This document shows, piece by piece, positions 3,854-12,398 of a stretch of 33,798 nt of DNA (its first letter is position 1; each line of letters opens with the position of its first letter). Origin of the DNA: an uncultured Alphaproteobacteria bacterium (lineage in GTDB: Bacteria > Pseudomonadota > Alphaproteobacteria > Methylaequorales > Methylaequoraceae); assembly GCA_902540805.1 (NCBI GenBank), contig CACBON010000011.1:1-33798 (forward strand), given 5' to 3'. Under the pieces are notes generated by a model. The model worked only from the letters and a program-made list of their open reading frames with translations. It searched no databases and had not been told where the DNA came from. The translations under genes and the position numbers were made by a program.

Positions 3854-4404
3854 TGCTTATTGACTCTTGCAACTCATCATTACTACTTATCGACGCACAA
3901 AATAAACTTTTTCCTAAAATACACGAACCAAAAAATTTGGAAAATGCTATTTTAAACTGCTTAGAAGTTTTTTATACACTGGATATTCCTATATTTTTCT
4001 CTGAACAGTATCCAAATGGACTTGGTTTAACAATTGATAAAGTCCTTGAAAAACTATTATCTTGTAAAGCTCATAAATTCGAAAAAACCTCTTTTTCATG
4101 TTTTCCGACTAATTCGACTGCCCTTCATGCAGATCAACTCTTAAAATCCAAACAAGTTATTTTGATTGGGATTGAAACACATATATGTGTTTTACAAACT
4201 GCTATGGATTTAAAAGACAAAGGGTACGAGGTCTTTGTAATTTTTGAGGCTGTTGGGTCTAGAAAAACTTACGATAAGGAATTAGCCATAAAGCGTATGA
4301 TTAATTATGGAATTCAAGTTGTAACTTTTGAAATGATGTTATTTGAACTTCTTAGAGATTCAAAAAACAAGCATTTCAAAAATTTATCAAGTCTAATAAA
4401 GTGA
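3853..4404 (+). CDS. Isochorismatase-like cysteine hydrolase
   Basis: The 183 residues form one isochorismatase-fold domain. The expected Asp-Lys-Cys triad is visible: Asp14 (LLLIDAQNKL), Lys78 (FEKTSFSC) and nucleophile Cys112 (GIETHICVLQTA, with the cis-peptide region before it). The sequence resembles the YcaC/ISOC1-type branch that hydrolyses small amides or related substrates; the substrate is not readable from sequence. It overlaps the glutathione peroxidase stop by one base and so shares its transcript. It runs convergently into glnA with a single base between the two stops. Confidence 0.9.
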   Translation: MLIDSCNSSLLLIDAQNKLFPKIHEPKNLENAILNCLEVFYTLDIPIFFSEQYPNGLGLTIDKVLEKLLSCKAHKFEKTSFSCFPTNSTALHADQLLKSKQVILIGIETHICVLQTAMDLKDKGYEVFVIFEAVGSRKTYDKELAIKRMINYGIQVVTFEMMLFELLRDSKNKHFKNLSSLIK

Positions 4405-4405
4405 T

Positions 4406-5815
4406 TTACACTGAATAATACATTTTAAATTCAACTGGATGAGGAGTATGTTCAAATTGCAATACCTCGTCCATTTTTAGAGCAATGTATGAATCAATTA
4501 AATTGTCTGTAAAAACATTTCCAGCTTTTAAGAAATCACGATCCTTATCGAGAGAATCAAGAGCTTCTCGAAGACTTCCACATACAGTAGGAACTCCTTT
4601 AAGTTCATCTTCTGATAATGCATATAAGTCTTTGTCCATTGCTTCACCAGGATGAATTTTATTTTTAATTCCGTCTATACCGGCCATCAACATCGATGCA
4701 AATGTAAAATAGGGGTTCCCAGATGCATCACCAAATCTTACTTCAAACCTTGCTGCTTTTGGACTACTCACGTAAGGTACTCTGCATGCAGCCGACCTAT
4801 TTCTGAATGAATAGGCTAACAAAACCGGTGCCTCAAAACCTGGTATAAGTCTTTTGTAACTGTTGGTTGTCGCATTGGAAAATGCATTAATAGCTTTAGC
4901 ATGTTTTATTATTCCACCGATATAGTATAGACACTCGTCAGATAATCCATTATATCCGTTCCCCGCAAATACAGATTTATCTCCTTTCCAAACTGATTGG
5001 TGAACATGCATACCTGAACCATTATCATTATAAACTGGCTTGGGCATGAAAGTGGCAGTTTTTCCATAAGCTTGCGCAACCATATGAACACAATATTTAT
5101 ATTTTTGAAGTGCGTCAGCACTTTTGATCAATGGCCCGAATTTCATCCCTAGTTCGTGTTGAGAAGGTGCTACTTCGTGATGATGTTTTTCCATCTCTAA
5201 ACCCATTTCTGACATTGTGGACACCATTTCTGCTCTGATATCTGTAGCAGAGTCAACAGGAGGAACAGGGAAATATCCACCTTTGTCTTTTGGTCTATGT
5301 CCCATGTTACCACCTTCCATCTCGGTCCCAGTGTTGTATGCACCTTCTTCAGAATCAATACTGTAAAAAGTATATTCCTGATTAGTTGCCCATTTGACAT
5401 CATCAAAGATAAAAAATTCAGCTTCAGGACCAAAAAAAGCGGTATCACCAATACCAGATTCTTTCAAATATTCTTCTGCCTTTTTTCCAGTACTTCTGGG
5501 GTCCAGTTCATACGGCTTTCCATCGTCTGGTTCTATAACATCACAAAAGAGAACAAGTTGTGGCTGAGCTGTAAAAGGATCCATTACAGCCGTTGATGGG
5601 TCTGGCTTTAAAATCATATCAGCCTTATCAATACTTTTCCAACCTGCAATGGACGAACCATCAAACATAATCCCATCTTTAAATGTATTTTCATCAATAG
5701 TTTCTACTGTTTGGGCTGTGTGCTGCCACTTTCCTTTAGTGTCAGTAAATCTTAGATCAACAAATTTGACCTCTTTGTCTTTAATCATTTTCATTACTTT
5801 TGATATTTCGCTCAT
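4406..5815 (-). CDS. glnA: Glutamine synthetase type I
   Basis: The 469 residues are the normal length for [12 protein letters not shown] (51-59) and the ATP/metal-binding signatures, including [25 protein letters not shown] and [11 protein letters not shown], are intact. The adenylylation loop keeps Tyr398 ([12 protein letters not shown]), equivalent to E. coli Tyr397, so GlnE control is possible. The enzyme makes glutamine from glutamate, ammonium and ATP. The start ATG at 5815 has a strong Shine-Dalgarno sequence (GGAGGG, 5819-5824). It lies 32 bp downstream of glnB on the same strand, the usual alphaproteobacterial glnB-glnA operon order. Confidence 0.98.
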
Positions 5816-5847
5816 ATTCCCTCCAATGGTTGTTAAATAAAGTTTAT

Positions 5848-6258
<411 letters not shown>

Positions 6259-8149: not shown

Positions 8150-8959
8150 CTACTGACAACTTTCTATGTTCACTTTTGTATCTAAAAATTCATCTCCATT
8201 ATAATTATTTTTAACACCTTTTATTATTGAAGCATCTTCGAAATCAAAGCCAGTACTAATTCTTATGTATTTATCATCAATACATTTTTTATGAGACGGA
8301 TCAAATGCCACCCACCCTAAATTATTTATGAAAATTTCTACCCATGCATGCGTCGTATTAACACCTGAAACTGTTTCTTCAAGTAAAAAGCCATTTACAT
8401 ATCTTGCTGGGAATTGGTTAAACCTTGCTGCACTTATAAGAATGTGAGCAAAATCCTGACATACACCCTTTTTTTGTCTCAAAGCGTCCCTTGAACTGGT
8501 AGAAGTTGTTGTTGATCCACTTGCGTATTTAATAGAGTTTGAGACTATTAAATTTAACTTATGAGCAAATTCTATTTGGTTTTTATTATTTTTTCTTGCA
8601 TTTTCGGAAATTTTCTCAACGTTTTCGCAGGGTTTTGTCAAGTCTGTTTCTCTGAGAAAACATTGGGGATGAACTTTTTCTTTCAACCCTTTAACTACAC
8701 CAGATAAATCTTTTGTTTTTAATATCCCCTTAGAAGTTATTTTAAGTTGCCCTTGAAAATTATTGATAAAAATATTCTGTATTCTATGGCCTAAGGCATC
8801 AGTGTGTGATTCTAGTATTTTTCCGTTACTAGAAAACGTTTTCCATTCTAAAATTTCTTGATTATCGCAAATTGAAGGATAAAGTTTTAAACATTGAATT
8901 AGCCTTGGCACTGTTGAACTATATTTATAAGTTGTAGAATGAGTGATCTTAATTTTCAT
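8150..8959 (-). CDS. Transglutaminase-like cysteine protease (COG1305), third gene of the ATP-grasp operon
   Basis: The 269 residues start with the bacterial transglutaminase N-terminal beta domain (HSTTYKYSSTV..LRLYP-like, about 1-75), followed by the transglutaminase core. The Cys-His-Asp triad is visible: Cys167 (KKGVCQDFAH), His204 (TTHAWVEIF) and Asp220 (GWVAFDPSHKK). No signal peptide is present, so the protein is cytoplasmic. The family hydrolyses or transfers at amide and isopeptide bonds. Together with the alpha-E and circularly permuted ATP-grasp proteins it forms a conserved trio proposed from comparative genomics to make and trim a peptide or amide-linked modification; the product is unknown. 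Its ATG overlaps the alpha-E stop by four bases (8956-8959), implying coupled translation. Confidence 0.93.
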   Translation of the reverse strand: MKIKITHSTTYKYSSTVPRLIQCLKLYPSICDNQEILEWKTFSSNGKILESHTDALGHRIQNIFINNFQGQLKITSKGILKTKDLSGVVKGLKEKVHPQCFLRETDLTKPCENVEKISENARKNNKNQIEFAHKLNLIVSNSIKYASGSTTTSTSSRDALRQKKGVCQDFAHILISAARFNQFPARYVNGFLLEETVSGVNTTHAWVEIFINNLGWVAFDPSHKKCIDDKYIRISTGFDFEDASIIKGVKNNYNGDEFLDTKVNIESCQ

Positions 8960-9915
8960 GTTTCTGAACCGAAAAAGTATTTTTGTTCAAATTTTTTATA
9001 TACAAAATTTATTTCATCAATAAAGGATTTTAAAAATTCATGTAAACCAATTTCTGTAATTTTATTAGCATTTAGATTTTTAATTTTTTTATACATTAGT
9101 GTCATTTTTTTATTTGAAGTAGAGGTTTGTTTATAGAATTTAGATAATCTTCCTAAATGATGATTAATTTTTTCTATTGAAAAAATTAGAGATCTTGGAC
9201 AAGTCATATTTAGAATTAAAAAATCTATAATTTTAGTATATGTAATTTCTTGTCCTCCATACGCCCATTTAAATGCCCTGAATGATGAAATTGACCTTAA
9301 CATCAAACTCCATTGAAAATTGTCAATATCACTTCCAACATAGTTTATACTTGGAAGTAAAATAAAGTATTTTACATTAATAATTCTTGCAGTAAAATCG
9401 GCTCTCTCAAAATAAGTTCCTAATATCAGAAAATCATAACCATCATTAATTAGCTGGGTGTTAAGTATTGTACCTCTAATTAAATTCACTTGTTTTTTTA
9501 CCCATTCAATAATTTCAGGTAATTCTTTTAAGATATTTTTTGTATCTTTCAAATTTTTATCTAGTTCGTGATAAGATGAGTTAATTGCATTCCAAACCTC
9601 TAAAGTAACAGCAGTCCTAACCATTCTAATATTTTCCCTTGCTGTTTTTATACAGTTTTTAACCGAAGAAGAGTTTTCTGGATCAAACAGAAGAAAGAAA
9701 ATAATTTTCTCTTTAGAAATTGTTTTATATTTTTTTAAATATTCATTTTTAATTCCCGAGGTTTCTAAAATAGATTCCCATTCATTTGTATAACCTCTTT
9801 CAGTATTAGGAATCAAAGAAATTCTGTATCCAACTTCTAAAAGTCTAGCTAAAGAATCGGCTCGTTCTATATATCTCGCTGACCAAAATAAATTTTCTGC
9901 AGTTCTACTCAGCAT
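8956..9915 (-). CDS. Alpha-E domain protein (COG2307)
   Basis: The 319-residue protein is almost entirely helical and opens with the family hallmark LSRTAENLFWSARYIERADSLAR. Further conserved pieces include TARENIRMVRTAVTLEVWNAIN, GTYFERADFTARI and the Cys-Pro-Arg (CPRSL) segment near residue 240. The biochemical function is unknown. It always travels with the circularly permuted ATP-grasp and often with a transglutaminase, and a helical scaffold or partner role for the ligase is the usual suggestion. Five bases separate it from the ATP-grasp stop, and it overlaps the transglutaminase start by four. Confidence 0.93.
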   Translation of the reverse strand: MLSRTAENLFWSARYIERADSLARLLEVGYRISLIPNTERGYTNEWESILETSGIKNEYLKKYKTISKEKIIFFLLFDPENSSSVKNCIKTARENIRMVRTAVTLEVWNAINSSYHELDKNLKDTKNILKELPEIIEWVKKQVNLIRGTILNTQLINDGYDFLILGTYFERADFTARIINVKYFILLPSINYVGSDIDNFQWSLMLRSISSFRAFKWAYGGQEITYTKIIDFLILNMTCPRSLIFSIEKINHHLGRLSKFYKQTSTSNKKMTLMYKKIKNLNANKITEIGLHEFLKSFIDEINFVYKKFEQKYFFGSET

Positions 9916-9920
9916 ACTAA

Positions 9921-11327
9921 CTATTCATTAAGTATCCATGTATCTTTAACTCCTCCACCTTGAGACGAATTAACAACTAATGAACCCTGATTTAAAGCAA
10001 CACGTGTTAAACCACCATCAACTAATTTTGTTTTATTTGCTCCAACTAAACAAAATGGCCTAAGATCAACGTGTCTTGGAGATAATTTTCTCTTATCAAA
10101 AATTGGTACAGAGGATAATTCAAGTATTGGTTGGGCTATATAGTTTTCTGGGTTTAAAAGGATTTTTTTTCGAAAAATTTCAATTTCTTTTTTTGAGGAT
10201 TTACTTCCAATTAATAAACCATAACCTCCAGAACCATGAACTTCTTTAACAACTAATTTACTTAAATTGTTTAGGACATATTTTTTTGCATCACCTTCAC
10301 AACATCGCCAAGTTTTTACATTTTCTAGTATTGGTTCTTCTCCAAGATAAAATTTAATTATTTCAGGTATGTAAGAATAAATGGCTTTATCGTCAGCAAT
10401 GCCTGAACCTGGAGCTGAACAAATGTTTACATTGCCAGATTTATATGAATCAAATAAACCGGGAATTCCAATAAGTGAGGAACTATCAAAAGTGATTGGA
10501 TCAATAAATTTATCATCAATTCTTCTATAAATTATATCAACTTTTTCCGGTCCCCTAGTTGTTTTCATATAGGTTATAGATTCGTCAACGAAAAGATCAT
10601 TTCCTTGAACCAATTCAACTCCCATAAGGTCAGCAAGAAAACTATGCTCATAATATGCACTATTTAAAGAACCTGGCGTGAGTATTACAACTTTTGGTTC
10701 TTTACTACATTTTTTTGGTGCTAGACTTTTCAGCACGTCTAACAAGTAATTTGGATAGTTTTCTACAGTTTCAATTTTTAATTTTTCAAATAATTCTGGA
10801 AACATTCTCATCATTATTTCCCTATTTTCAATCATATAGGAAACTCCAGATGGAGTTCGACAATTATCCTCCAAAACTTTAAAAGTTTTTTCGTTAATTC
10901 TTACAATGTCAGATCCAATAATTGGACTGTAAATTCTTTTAGGAACTTTAAAACCAATCATTTTTATTTCATATGCAGGGTTTTTATAAATTAAATTTTC
11001 TGGTATCAACTTTGCCTTTATGATTTCACCAGAGTTATAAATATCATTTAGAAAGGCATTGACGGCTAATGCTCTTTGAATAACCCCTTTTTTAATTTTT
11101 TTCCATTCTGTTGAAGAGATTATTCTTGGAAACATATCAAATGGAATCAAGCGCTCAGTAGAATCAAAGTTATTGTATACAGAAAACGTAATTCCAATTT
11201 TTTTAAAGAGGTTTTCAGCTTCATTTTTTTTTTTAACAACAACATTTTCGGGTAATGATTTAGCCCAATCATATATTTGATTATAAAATTTTCTAACTTT
11301 TGAATTTTTGTAAACTTCGTTGTACAT
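9921..11327 (-). CDS. Circularly permuted ATP-grasp amidoligase-family protein (COG2308)
   Basis: The 468 residues match the COG2308 circularly permuted ATP-grasp family. Visible hallmarks are VLEDNCRTPSGVSYMIENR (about 150-170), LTPGSLNSAYYEHSFLA..MGVELVQGNDL (about 215-245), the glycine loop EVHGSGGYGLLIG, and a C-terminal DGGLTRVAL..GSLVVNSSQGGGVKDTW. ATP-grasp enzymes activate a carboxylate as acyl phosphate and join it to an amine; the substrates here are unknown. It is the first gene of the operon with alpha-E and transglutaminase. Its leader contains a glutamine riboswitch aptamer (11369-11413) and a hairpin that reaches to one base before ATG, so expression probably responds to glutamine. 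Confidence 0.93.
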   Translation of the reverse strand: MYNEVYKNSKVRKFYNQIYDWAKSLPENVVVKKKNEAENLFKKIGITFSVYNNFDSTERLIPFDMFPRIISSTEWKKIKKGVIQRALAVNAFLNDIYNSGEIIKAKLIPENLIYKNPAYEIKMIGFKVPKRIYSPIIGSDIVRINEKTFKVLEDNCRTPSGVSYMIENREIMMRMFPELFEKLKIETVENYPNYLLDVLKSLAPKKCSKEPKVVILTPGSLNSAYYEHSFLADLMGVELVQGNDLFVDESITYMKTTRGPEKVDIIYRRIDDKFIDPITFDSSSLIGIPGLFDSYKSGNVNICSAPGSGIADDKAIYSYIPEIIKFYLGEEPILENVKTWRCCEGDAKKYVLNNLSKLVVKEVHGSGGYGLLIGSKSSKKEIEIFRKKILLNPENYIAQPILELSSVPIFDKRKLSPRHVDLRPFCLVGANKTKLVDGGLTRVALNQGSLVVNSSQGGGVKDTWILNE

Positions 11328-11328
11328 G

Positions 11329-11358
11329 CTCTTTCAATTATTATCGGAGTGGAAAGAG
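11329..11358 (-). promoter_or_regulatory. Hairpin covering the translation start of the ATP-grasp gene (putative riboswitch expression platform)
   Basis: On the minus-strand transcript CTCTTTC (11358-11352) pairs with GAAAGAG (11335-11329), seven perfect pairs around a 16-nt loop, ending one base before the ATG at 11327. The 3' arm is the only purine-rich ribosome-binding candidate. There is no U-run after it, so a translational switch is more likely than termination. Confidence 0.55.
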
Positions 11359-11368
11359 ACAGACGGAT

Positions 11369-11413
11369 GCGTTCCTTCGGTTTCAAACCTACTTCCGACC
11401 ATATGGTTGAACG
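11369..11413 (-). promoter_or_regulatory. Glutamine riboswitch aptamer (glnA / Downstream-peptide RNA class)
   Basis: Read 5'-3' on the minus strand, P1 CGUUC (11413-11409) closes with GAACG (11374-11370). P2 is ACC-AUAU-GGU. The conserved core CGGAAGUAGG (11397-11388) follows, P3 is GGUU..AACC, and the conserved GAAGGAACG completes the three-stem junction. The order and the invariant core match the glutamine aptamers known from cyanobacteria and marine metagenomes. It begins about four bases after the predicted transcription start and lies 41 nt upstream of the ATP-grasp ATG. No short peptide ORF lies between. Confidence 0.85.
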
Positions 11414-11423
11414 TTTCTTAAAG

Positions 11424-11452
11424 CTTATAACTAATCATTTGCTAAAGCAACA
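11424..11452 (-). promoter_or_regulatory. Probable promoter of the riboswitch-ATP-grasp operon
   Basis: On the minus strand a -10-like TATAAG (11429-11424) is preceded by TTGCTT fifteen bases upstream or CTGTTG at a slightly shifted register. The expected start, near 11417, is just before the aptamer P1 stem. The match is modest, and the main support is its fit with the aptamer boundary. Confidence 0.4.
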
Positions 11453-11460
11453 GTTATTTA

Positions 11461-11508
11461 GTTTGTGGTACAGGATGTAGGCGTTTCAAAACCCCTCAGC
11501 CACCCCAT
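11461..11508 (+). repeat. Decayed copy of the tRNA-His 3' half (attachment-site-like)
   Basis: Aligned without gaps to 8075-8122 (anticodon loop through CCA plus one base), 43 of 48 positions are identical; the five differences break the T-stem and variable region. The 5' half of the tRNA is absent, so it cannot be a functional tRNA. The repeat starts at the anticodon loop and runs to the 3' end, the usual extent of integrase attachment sites in tRNA genes. Together with tRNA-His it brackets the ATP-grasp operon. Confidence 0.85.
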
Positions 11509-11588
11509 GAAAAACTTTAATGTACAGTTAATAAATAAATTTATAATTCTTTATAAAGCTGAAACCTATTTTATAATATAGTCTGATT

Positions 11589-11665
11589 TTATCCACACGA
11601 AAACTGTTAATAAAAAATCCCTAAAATGTTGACAAAATTAGCAAAATAGGGAAAAGTTATCCACA
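11589..11665 (+). promoter_or_regulatory. Paired perfect DnaA boxes in an AT-rich intergenic region
   Basis: TTATCCACA occurs at 11589-11597 and again at 11657-11665, same orientation, 68 bp apart. Weaker reverse-strand relatives (TGTTAATAA type) lie near 11522 and 11604. Between the boxes are TTGACA (11629-11634), a -35-like hexamer, and TCCCTA...TAGGGA arms (6 bp). The 184-bp stretch from 11507 to 11690 is otherwise non-coding. It may be a DnaA-controlled promoter for the downstream barrel gene or part of a replication origin. Confidence 0.5.
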
Positions 11666-11690
11666 GGTTAAAATATTTAAGGAGTTCGGT

Positions 11691-12398
11691 ATGAAAAGAT
11701 TACTATTTGTTGTTGCATTTCTCACATTACCCTTTACATCAAAAGCTGACACTTATTCTGTATCAGACAAACTATATTTAGGTTTTGGTGCTGGCATAAT
11801 TAGTCCTAACAATGTAGATATCAATGTGTCTGAAGCTGGAACTATAAGCGGTGTTACCTATTCAGCCAATATTAATGGTGAGTTTGAGTTTGACAACGGA
11901 TACCAAATAAATGGTTTGTTGGGTTATAGATTCAACGACTATTTGTCCTTTGAAACAGAATTAGGTTACACTCAATTTGATTATGATAAAGTTAACTTAA
12001 CTGCTGGTGGAACAGCTACTTCAGGAGGAGTTACATTTACTGGAGCAGCTAGCAGATCTTATGATATAGATGGAAGTATTTCTGCTTTCTCAATGATATT
12101 TGGTCCCGCATTTGATTTTGATGTAAGCAATAATCTAGAATTTTTAGTTAGTGGTGGAATAGGTTTCTCATCTTATAACGACGAAGTTAAAAGCGTCGGT
12201 GGAAGTACTGGTTTATCATATGATGAGGATTTTACAGATTTTGCCGCAAAATTTAAGACTGGTGCTAATTACTCTTTTACGCAACAAACATATCTACAAG
12301 CTACTTATGGTTTTAATTATGTTGATTCAGGAATTAATAATTTTACTGAAGATTTCACAGCTCATAGCTTTGATGCTAAGTTAGTTATAAACTTTTAA
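11691..12398 (+). CDS. Outer-membrane beta-barrel protein (OmpA/opacity-type barrel)
   Basis: The 235 residues begin with a signal peptide (about 1-19, cleavage after SKA). The rest is alternating amphipathic strands: YLGFGAGII, FEFDNGYQINGLLGYRF, YLSFETELGYTQFDY, LEFLVSGGIGFSSY, TYLQATYGFNYV and the C-terminal FDAKLVINF ending in Phe, the normal outer-membrane sorting signal. This fits an eight-stranded barrel. The exact role (structural, adhesion or small pore) is not readable. The start has a clear Shine-Dalgarno AAGGAG (11679-11684), and the promoter region contains two DnaA boxes. Confidence 0.88.
   Translation: MKRLLFVVAFLTLPFTSKADTYSVSDKLYLGFGAGIISPNNVDINVSEAGTISGVTYSANINGEFEFDNGYQINGLLGYRFNDYLSFETELGYTQFDYDKVNLTAGGTATSGGVTFTGAASRSYDIDGSISAFSMIFGPAFDFDVSNNLEFLVSGGIGFSSYNDEVKSVGGSTGLSYDEDFTDFAAKFKTGANYSFTQQTYLQATYGFNYVDSGINNFTEDFTAHSFDAKLVINF

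Follow-up and report, generated by a model that had tools for sequence, protein, structure and literature searches.

A class-I glutamine riboswitch ahead of an Anbu-less amidoligase operon in marine Alphaproteobacteria, and its probable role as a glutamine OFF switch

Introduction

In the genome of an uncultured alphaproteobacterium, an operon for a circularly permuted ATP-grasp ligase, an Alpha-E protein and a transglutaminase-like protein is preceded by a class-I (glnA-type) glutamine riboswitch, and both the identity of this sensor and its association with the operon have strong sequence support. The riboswitch is likely to be a glutamine OFF switch on the translation of the operon, which we read as an Anbu-type amidoligase operon without Anbu that belongs to nitrogen starvation. 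All positions refer to the window, the whole stretch of 33,798 nucleotides that was analysed, in which the following features are of interest:

11424-11450, minus strand: predicted sigma-70-like promoter, TTGCTT-15-TATAAG, its columns conserved in 23 leaders
11366-11415, minus strand: glutamine riboswitch aptamer, RF01739, from cmscan and P2/P3 covariation
11413-11409 and 11374-11370, minus strand: 5' and 3' arms of P1 of this aptamer
11329-11358, minus strand: predicted expression platform, in which CTCTTTC (11358-11352) can pair with the Shine-Dalgarno sequence GAAAGAG (11335-11329)
9921-11327, minus strand: circularly permuted ATP-grasp ligase, 468 aa (PF14403 508.8 bits, PF04174 445 bits)
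8956-9915, minus strand: Alpha-E protein, 319 aa (PF04168 269.9 bits)
8150-8959, minus strand: transglutaminase-like protein, 269 aa (PF01841 81.6 bits, PF08379 39.1 bits)

Identity of the aptamer

A preliminary description, made from the letters of the window, had claimed a glutamine aptamer with its P1, P2 and P3 core in the right order at 11369-11413, and this is what cmscan of the whole window recovered: the RF01739 model (glutamine riboswitch, glnA leader; gathering score 35 bits) matches 11366-11415 on the minus strand with 59.6 bits (E 6.5e-11), so that the element first described is this match minus a few terminal bases. The match spans positions 1-53 of the 53 of the model, with P1, P2, CGGAAGUA, P3 and GAAGGAACG all present; besides it, cmscan gave one Rfam match over threshold in the window, a tRNA. 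It is the sole RF01739 match in its own genome (G000; 39 contigs, 74.7% complete), and its end lies 38 bases from the ATG of the ATP-grasp gene at 11327. Of the two models that the description had named for the check, only the glnA model stood, as RF01704 (Downstream-peptide) gave no covariance-model match up to E = 1 in the region 11200-11700 and was rejected as the identity of the leader.

Covarying stems, whose absence from homologous leaders the same description had named as a refutation, were found in 56 distinct aptamer copies gathered by motif. Pairs 1-3 of P2 form in every one of the 56 copies, each pair in two to four types, and those of P3 in 56, 56 and 53; not one of these counts was equalled in 500 shuffles, a comparison that overstates the support because the copies are related, and P1 pairing says nothing on covariation since P1 was fixed by the collecting motif. 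Score, covariation of P2 and P3, and a place in the 5' leader of nitrogen-related genes (glnA and amt in relatives) all speak for membership in RF01739.

The operon and its proteins

The trio of ATP-grasp, Alpha-E and transglutaminase had been recognized from the letters alone, and the Pfam matches listed above bear this out. The ATP-grasp protein has a solved relative, 3n6x (E 4.4e-167), and in the transglutaminase Cys167, His204 and Asp220 are each kept in 80 of 80 aligned sequences (that of the window and 79 from the loci). The AF2 model of the Alpha-E protein is all-helical with a mean pLDDT of 86.8; its best Foldseek match in the PDB has E 0.55, and a further comparison gave Z values up to 8.6, which are uninformative for a helical bundle.

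These are the three genes of the Anbu operon in the same order, collinear in 79 of 81 loci, but no Anbu gene lies alongside them in the window. With a motif for the Anbu start, no such start was found in any of the 34 marine loci that have at least 800 bases after the transglutaminase gene (19 of the window's order, one of family f141, one of TMED25 and 13 others), versus 40 of the 42 remaining, mainly Rhodobacterales, loci, and therefore the marine version can be regarded as an Anbu operon without Anbu. A search for the proteasome-like domain PF00227 found no match in G000 and one match each in 29 of 32 genomes of the order, in frames of 184-212 aa, one of which looks like HslV, while the others are judged by length alone. 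The operon had first been called an orphan pathway; this holds in that it has no known product, but its gene order is that of the Anbu operon and its relatives are reported to be linked to NtrC and nitrogen limitation. About 2 kb past the end of the operon, at 4406-6237 on the minus strand, the window also holds a P-II gene and a type I glutamine synthetase gene, which are without a glutamine aptamer, unlike the glnA genes of family f141 described below.

Association of the aptamer with the operon

The window's order comprises one family, of which 32 genomes were examined. RF01739 and PF14403 each occur in 23 of them, and the 23 are identical; the nine genomes without the aptamer (54-93% complete) are the same nine that have no PF14403. 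In all 23 the aptamer lies directly upstream of the ATP-grasp gene, with which it shares contig and strand, and 198-245 bases ahead of the PF14403 domain; these counts are not independent since genomes within one order are kin. In a protein scan of 80 loci, the aptamer motif is present in all 20 loci of the order (L041-L060) and in L074 ('Rhizobiales bacterium TMED25'), and missing from the other 59, where the motif would miss degenerate copies. The 20 relatives are single-cell genomes and MAGs recorded as 'uncultured Alphaproteobacteria bacterium' or 'Rickettsiales bacterium', titles that back the alphaproteobacterial origin proposed at the outset.

Four of the 27 aptamers of the order lie elsewhere than before the ATP-grasp gene. 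One (L039; G009:C1, 1361-3312) is a single aptamer followed by a Gcw_chp porin, an outer-membrane protein, and an ammonium transporter, a locus that is possibly a further member of a glutamine regulon in this order. The other three are on phage-like contigs of G006 (L025, L026, L027 and L040; contigs C2, C10 and C26), where a compact glutamine aptamer directly precedes a frame of 77 aa, with long, repeated frames resembling tail fibres next to it, in three copies of apparently one locus.

In wider samples, scanned with stricter filters by which weak matches are lost, RF01739 was found in 6 of 385 genomes of the class, five of the window's order and one of another family (G190, family f141), and in 1 of 398 genomes of the phylum, which is the window's own. 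In f141, a second alphaproteobacterial family, the aptamer is present in 49 of 50 sampled genomes, at up to eight matches per genome, and it lies upstream of the PF14403 gene in all 30 genomes that have one (26 by coordinates; G444, G452 and G474 by cmscan; G484, locus L166, by motif). The proposal to look for the same aptamer before COG2308 operons in related genomes thus gave a strongly positive answer, 23 of 23 in the order and 30 of 30 in f141. When 29 f141 loci are taken, one per genome and hence no census, the aptamer precedes the ATP-grasp gene in 21, glnA in seven and amt in one. In the sister family f30 the aptamer occurs in none of 50 genomes and PF14403 in 35 of 50, two of these matches being fragments; ten upstream stretches of its divergent circularly permuted ATP-grasp genes (L153-L161, L165) were examined and none holds the aptamer.

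The f141 genome G190 has four tandem aptamer pairs, before glnA, two amt genes and the ATP-grasp trio. Behind the second aptamer, ATP-grasp, amt1 and amt2 have a block of approximately 40 bases that is almost the same in all three (alignment scores of 30-33 vs shuffled maxima of 6-12), and the corresponding block of glnA is only weakly similar (7-10 vs a shuffled maximum of 4). The block common to the three genes is seen in L036 and L038. In L038, near 3930-3960, amt2 is also preceded by a strong hairpin and a short T run resembling an intrinsic terminator, and therefore amt2 may be controlled at transcription.

In a tree of 45 ATP-grasp proteins, 41 taken from the 80-locus protein scan and four from f141, the aptamer label needs at least two changes and the f141 operon stands far from that of the window's order, so that the pairing of aptamer and operon probably arose more than once, with the caveat that long branches meet between the f141 rows and the rest.

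Predicted promoter and expression platform

Upstream of the aptamer, 23 leaders (22 of the order and L074) agree in the promoter consensus TTGaTTT...tTAtAA, and the predicted promoter would place the transcript start at about the first base of the aptamer. A generic promoter scan, whose spacers of 16-18 omit TTGCTT-15-TATAAG, gave 19 promoter-like sites vs 18.5 expected, which is no excess, and the generic scan for promoters and terminators is uninformative.

In folding comparisons, where the Shine-Dalgarno sequence was picked by a simple rule and tertiary contacts lie outside the model, the predicted unpaired fraction of the Shine-Dalgarno sequence in the window leader (L001) is 0.00 with the aptamer enforced vs 0.45 in the free fold. 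In L001 and its close kin the enforced aptamer leaves CUCUUUC free for the Shine-Dalgarno GAAAGAG, whose unpaired fraction is then 0.00, and in the free fold the fraction is 0.25-0.50 in L001, L003-L006 and L008. Across 23 leaders, accessibility is lower with the aptamer enforced in 15, higher in seven, L017 and L022 among them, and equal in one. The platform hairpin of L001 alone has a z of -1.0, with 47 of 300 shuffles as low, and its aptamer-platform pairing was reached by 3 of 100 shuffles; among 18 distinct leaders, the hairpin stands out from shuffles at the 5% level in five (mean z -1.06) and the pairing in seven. In L017 and L022 the ATG follows the GAACG of the aptamer by three bases, so close that the sole Shine-Dalgarno-like run, GAAGGA, is itself aptamer sequence, a hint that may be read as the clearest anatomical sign for an OFF mechanism.

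Nitrogen control of related operons

A sigma-54 consensus was matched against the leaders of all 80 loci, each taken to at most 200 bases, and sites scoring at least 10 of 12 occur in none of the 21 aptamer leaders vs 11 of the 59 others. Nine of the 14 nearest aptamer-less marine leaders (L061-L073, L077) carry a candidate site of 11-12 of 12, each equalled by at most two of 200 shuffles, and the leaders of L067, L068, L070, L071 and L072 have no site of this score. These sites of the marine relatives are matches to a consensus only, and since most of the remaining loci, mainly Rhodobacterales, are without a sigma-54-like site within 200 bases, the contrast between aptamer and sigma-54 holds for the nearest marine relatives only. 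Compared with the operons of these relatives, the window has a leader RNA sensor in place of the sigma-54-like site.

It has been reported, in passages of the respective papers, that the DUF404/407, DUF403 and transglutaminase cluster of Burkholderia cenocepacia is NtrC-dependent (PMC5491218), and that the Anbu operon PP_2685-2688 of P. putida is likely under NtrB/NtrC control and is induced by nitrogen limitation (PMC7801951), a likeness to the role proposed here; the first value column of the table concerned gives a rise of 11-15 fold for PP_2686-2688, whereas the Anbu-like PP_2685 stands there at 1.12 (PMC7801951). In marine metagenomes the domains of these operons reportedly associate with urea-metabolism domains (PMC3597751). 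Within the window's order, many genomes have NtrC-like proteins that score about 500-530 bits, the NtrC equivalog cut-off of 558.6 bits is passed in none of the 32, which leaves their identity as NtrC uncertified, and the best match in G000 is a partial one of 307 bits. Sigma-54 (RpoN) was found in 24 of the 32, G000 included. The idea of the riboswitch as a mere substitute for a lost NtrC was rejected: it fills no gap, because the order does have genes for NtrC-like proteins and for RpoN.

A proposed mechanism and its alternatives

The window RNA would bind glutamine and act with an OFF sign through the expression platform. When glutamine is plentiful the aptamer would fold, and the pyrimidine-rich arm downstream would pair with the Shine-Dalgarno sequence, which in the most compact relatives is itself aptamer sequence; with falling glutamine the aptamer would open, its purine-rich core could pair with the pyrimidine arm and the operon would be translated. 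The operon would thereby be a nitrogen-starvation module, putatively for the salvage or remodelling of cell nitrogen, with an RNA sensor doing here the job of the sigma-54-like promoters of several relatives. Ammonium transporters serve nitrogen-poor cells, and their presence among the targets in f141 suggests repression by glutamine; as the block after the aptamer is near-identical there, ATP-grasp, amt1 and amt2 are probably controlled with the same sign.

A glutamine ON switch, by which expression would rise with glutamine and the operon would be of use to nitrogen-replete cells, for example in making a nitrogen store or a peptide tag, has precedents on its side. According to passages of PMC6316151, the tested class-I riboswitch of Synechocystis, that of gifB, activates expression, the opposite of the sign predicted here, and experiments noted in part of PMC2864571 suggest a reduced expression by glnA and Downstream-peptide RNAs when nitrogen is depleted, which also counts against an OFF switch; the platform statistics are modest, with the fold going the opposite way in seven of 23 leaders. 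We nevertheless consider the ON switch unlikely, given that the f141 operon has its aptamers and near-identical post-aptamer block in common with ammonium transporters, that related operons are induced by nitrogen limitation in the published excerpts (PMC5491218, PMC7801951), and that the Shine-Dalgarno sequence falls within the aptamer in L017 and L022.

Even less probable is a feedback on the pathway itself, with glutamine as direct substrate or product of the ATP-grasp and transglutaminase chemistry and the riboswitch as substrate or end-product control. In its favour, part of PMC6376114 describes transglutaminase action at glutamine residues and the formation of amide bonds by ATP-grasp proteins, and the catalytic triad is kept, but in f141 the same sensor also precedes glnA and amt, in agreement with a general nitrogen signal, and relatives are under NtrC control or carry sigma-54-like sites. 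The link to glutamine drawn in the preliminary description is supported by the aptamer and its pairing with the operon, while its 'glutamine-containing peptide' fits worse than a general low-nitrogen response. That an RNA of class-I fold responds here to a different ligand, or that it is a functionless relic, seems very improbable: the match is full-length and well over the gathering score, the stems covary in 56 distinct copies and nitrogen genes lie downstream in other settings. The OFF switch on a nitrogen-starvation operon is accordingly the explanation we prefer.

Relation to known systems and implications

The aptamer class is known, and the Anbu-type amidoligase operon as its target appears to be new within the literature searched, in which the matches listed, main texts in excerpt, contain no report tying a glutamine riboswitch to this operon. 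No paper in that literature has both 'glutamine riboswitch' and 'transglutaminase', and two HIMB59 papers (PMC10308909, PMC3815206) make no mention of riboswitches. In passages of the earlier reports, glnA RNAs are described from cyanobacteria and marine sequences (PMC2864571), the class-I glutamine riboswitch is called restricted to cyanobacteria (PMC6316151), and glutamine riboswitches are reported from marine phages (PMC9004378); here, by contrast, the class lies in alphaproteobacterial genomes and its target is an Anbu-type amidoligase operon. The window copy has the full class-I consensus and f141 has tandem copies, whose targets glnA and amt are genes already listed for glnA RNAs, tandem arrangements included, in part of PMC2864571. 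The glutamine-II RNA RF01704 also senses glutamine (PMC6316151, in part) and has core features in common with the glnA RNA (PMC2864571, in part), but it precedes short peptides, whereas the window leader precedes a protein operon.

On balance we lean towards the view that an Anbu-less amidoligase operon, which elsewhere is a nitrogen-starvation operon run by sigma-54 and NtrC, came on two or more occasions under an RNA that senses glutamine directly, in streamlined marine Alphaproteobacteria. The finding assigns class-I glutamine riboswitches to defined genomes of this class of bacteria, and it provides a test case for evolution, a single operon with nitrogen control of two unrelated kinds. 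Hypotheses on the role of the Anbu-type operon are, to the knowledge of the authors of PMC6376114 (in part), without experimental confirmation, and a dedicated glutamine sensor points to glutamine depletion as the condition in which to hunt for the substrate, with the riboswitch as a ready reporter. If the view is true, the operon would be, along with glnA and amt, a core part of a regulon for glutamine starvation, in which ATP-dependent ligation and transglutaminase chemistry would serve to salvage or remodel the nitrogen of the cell.
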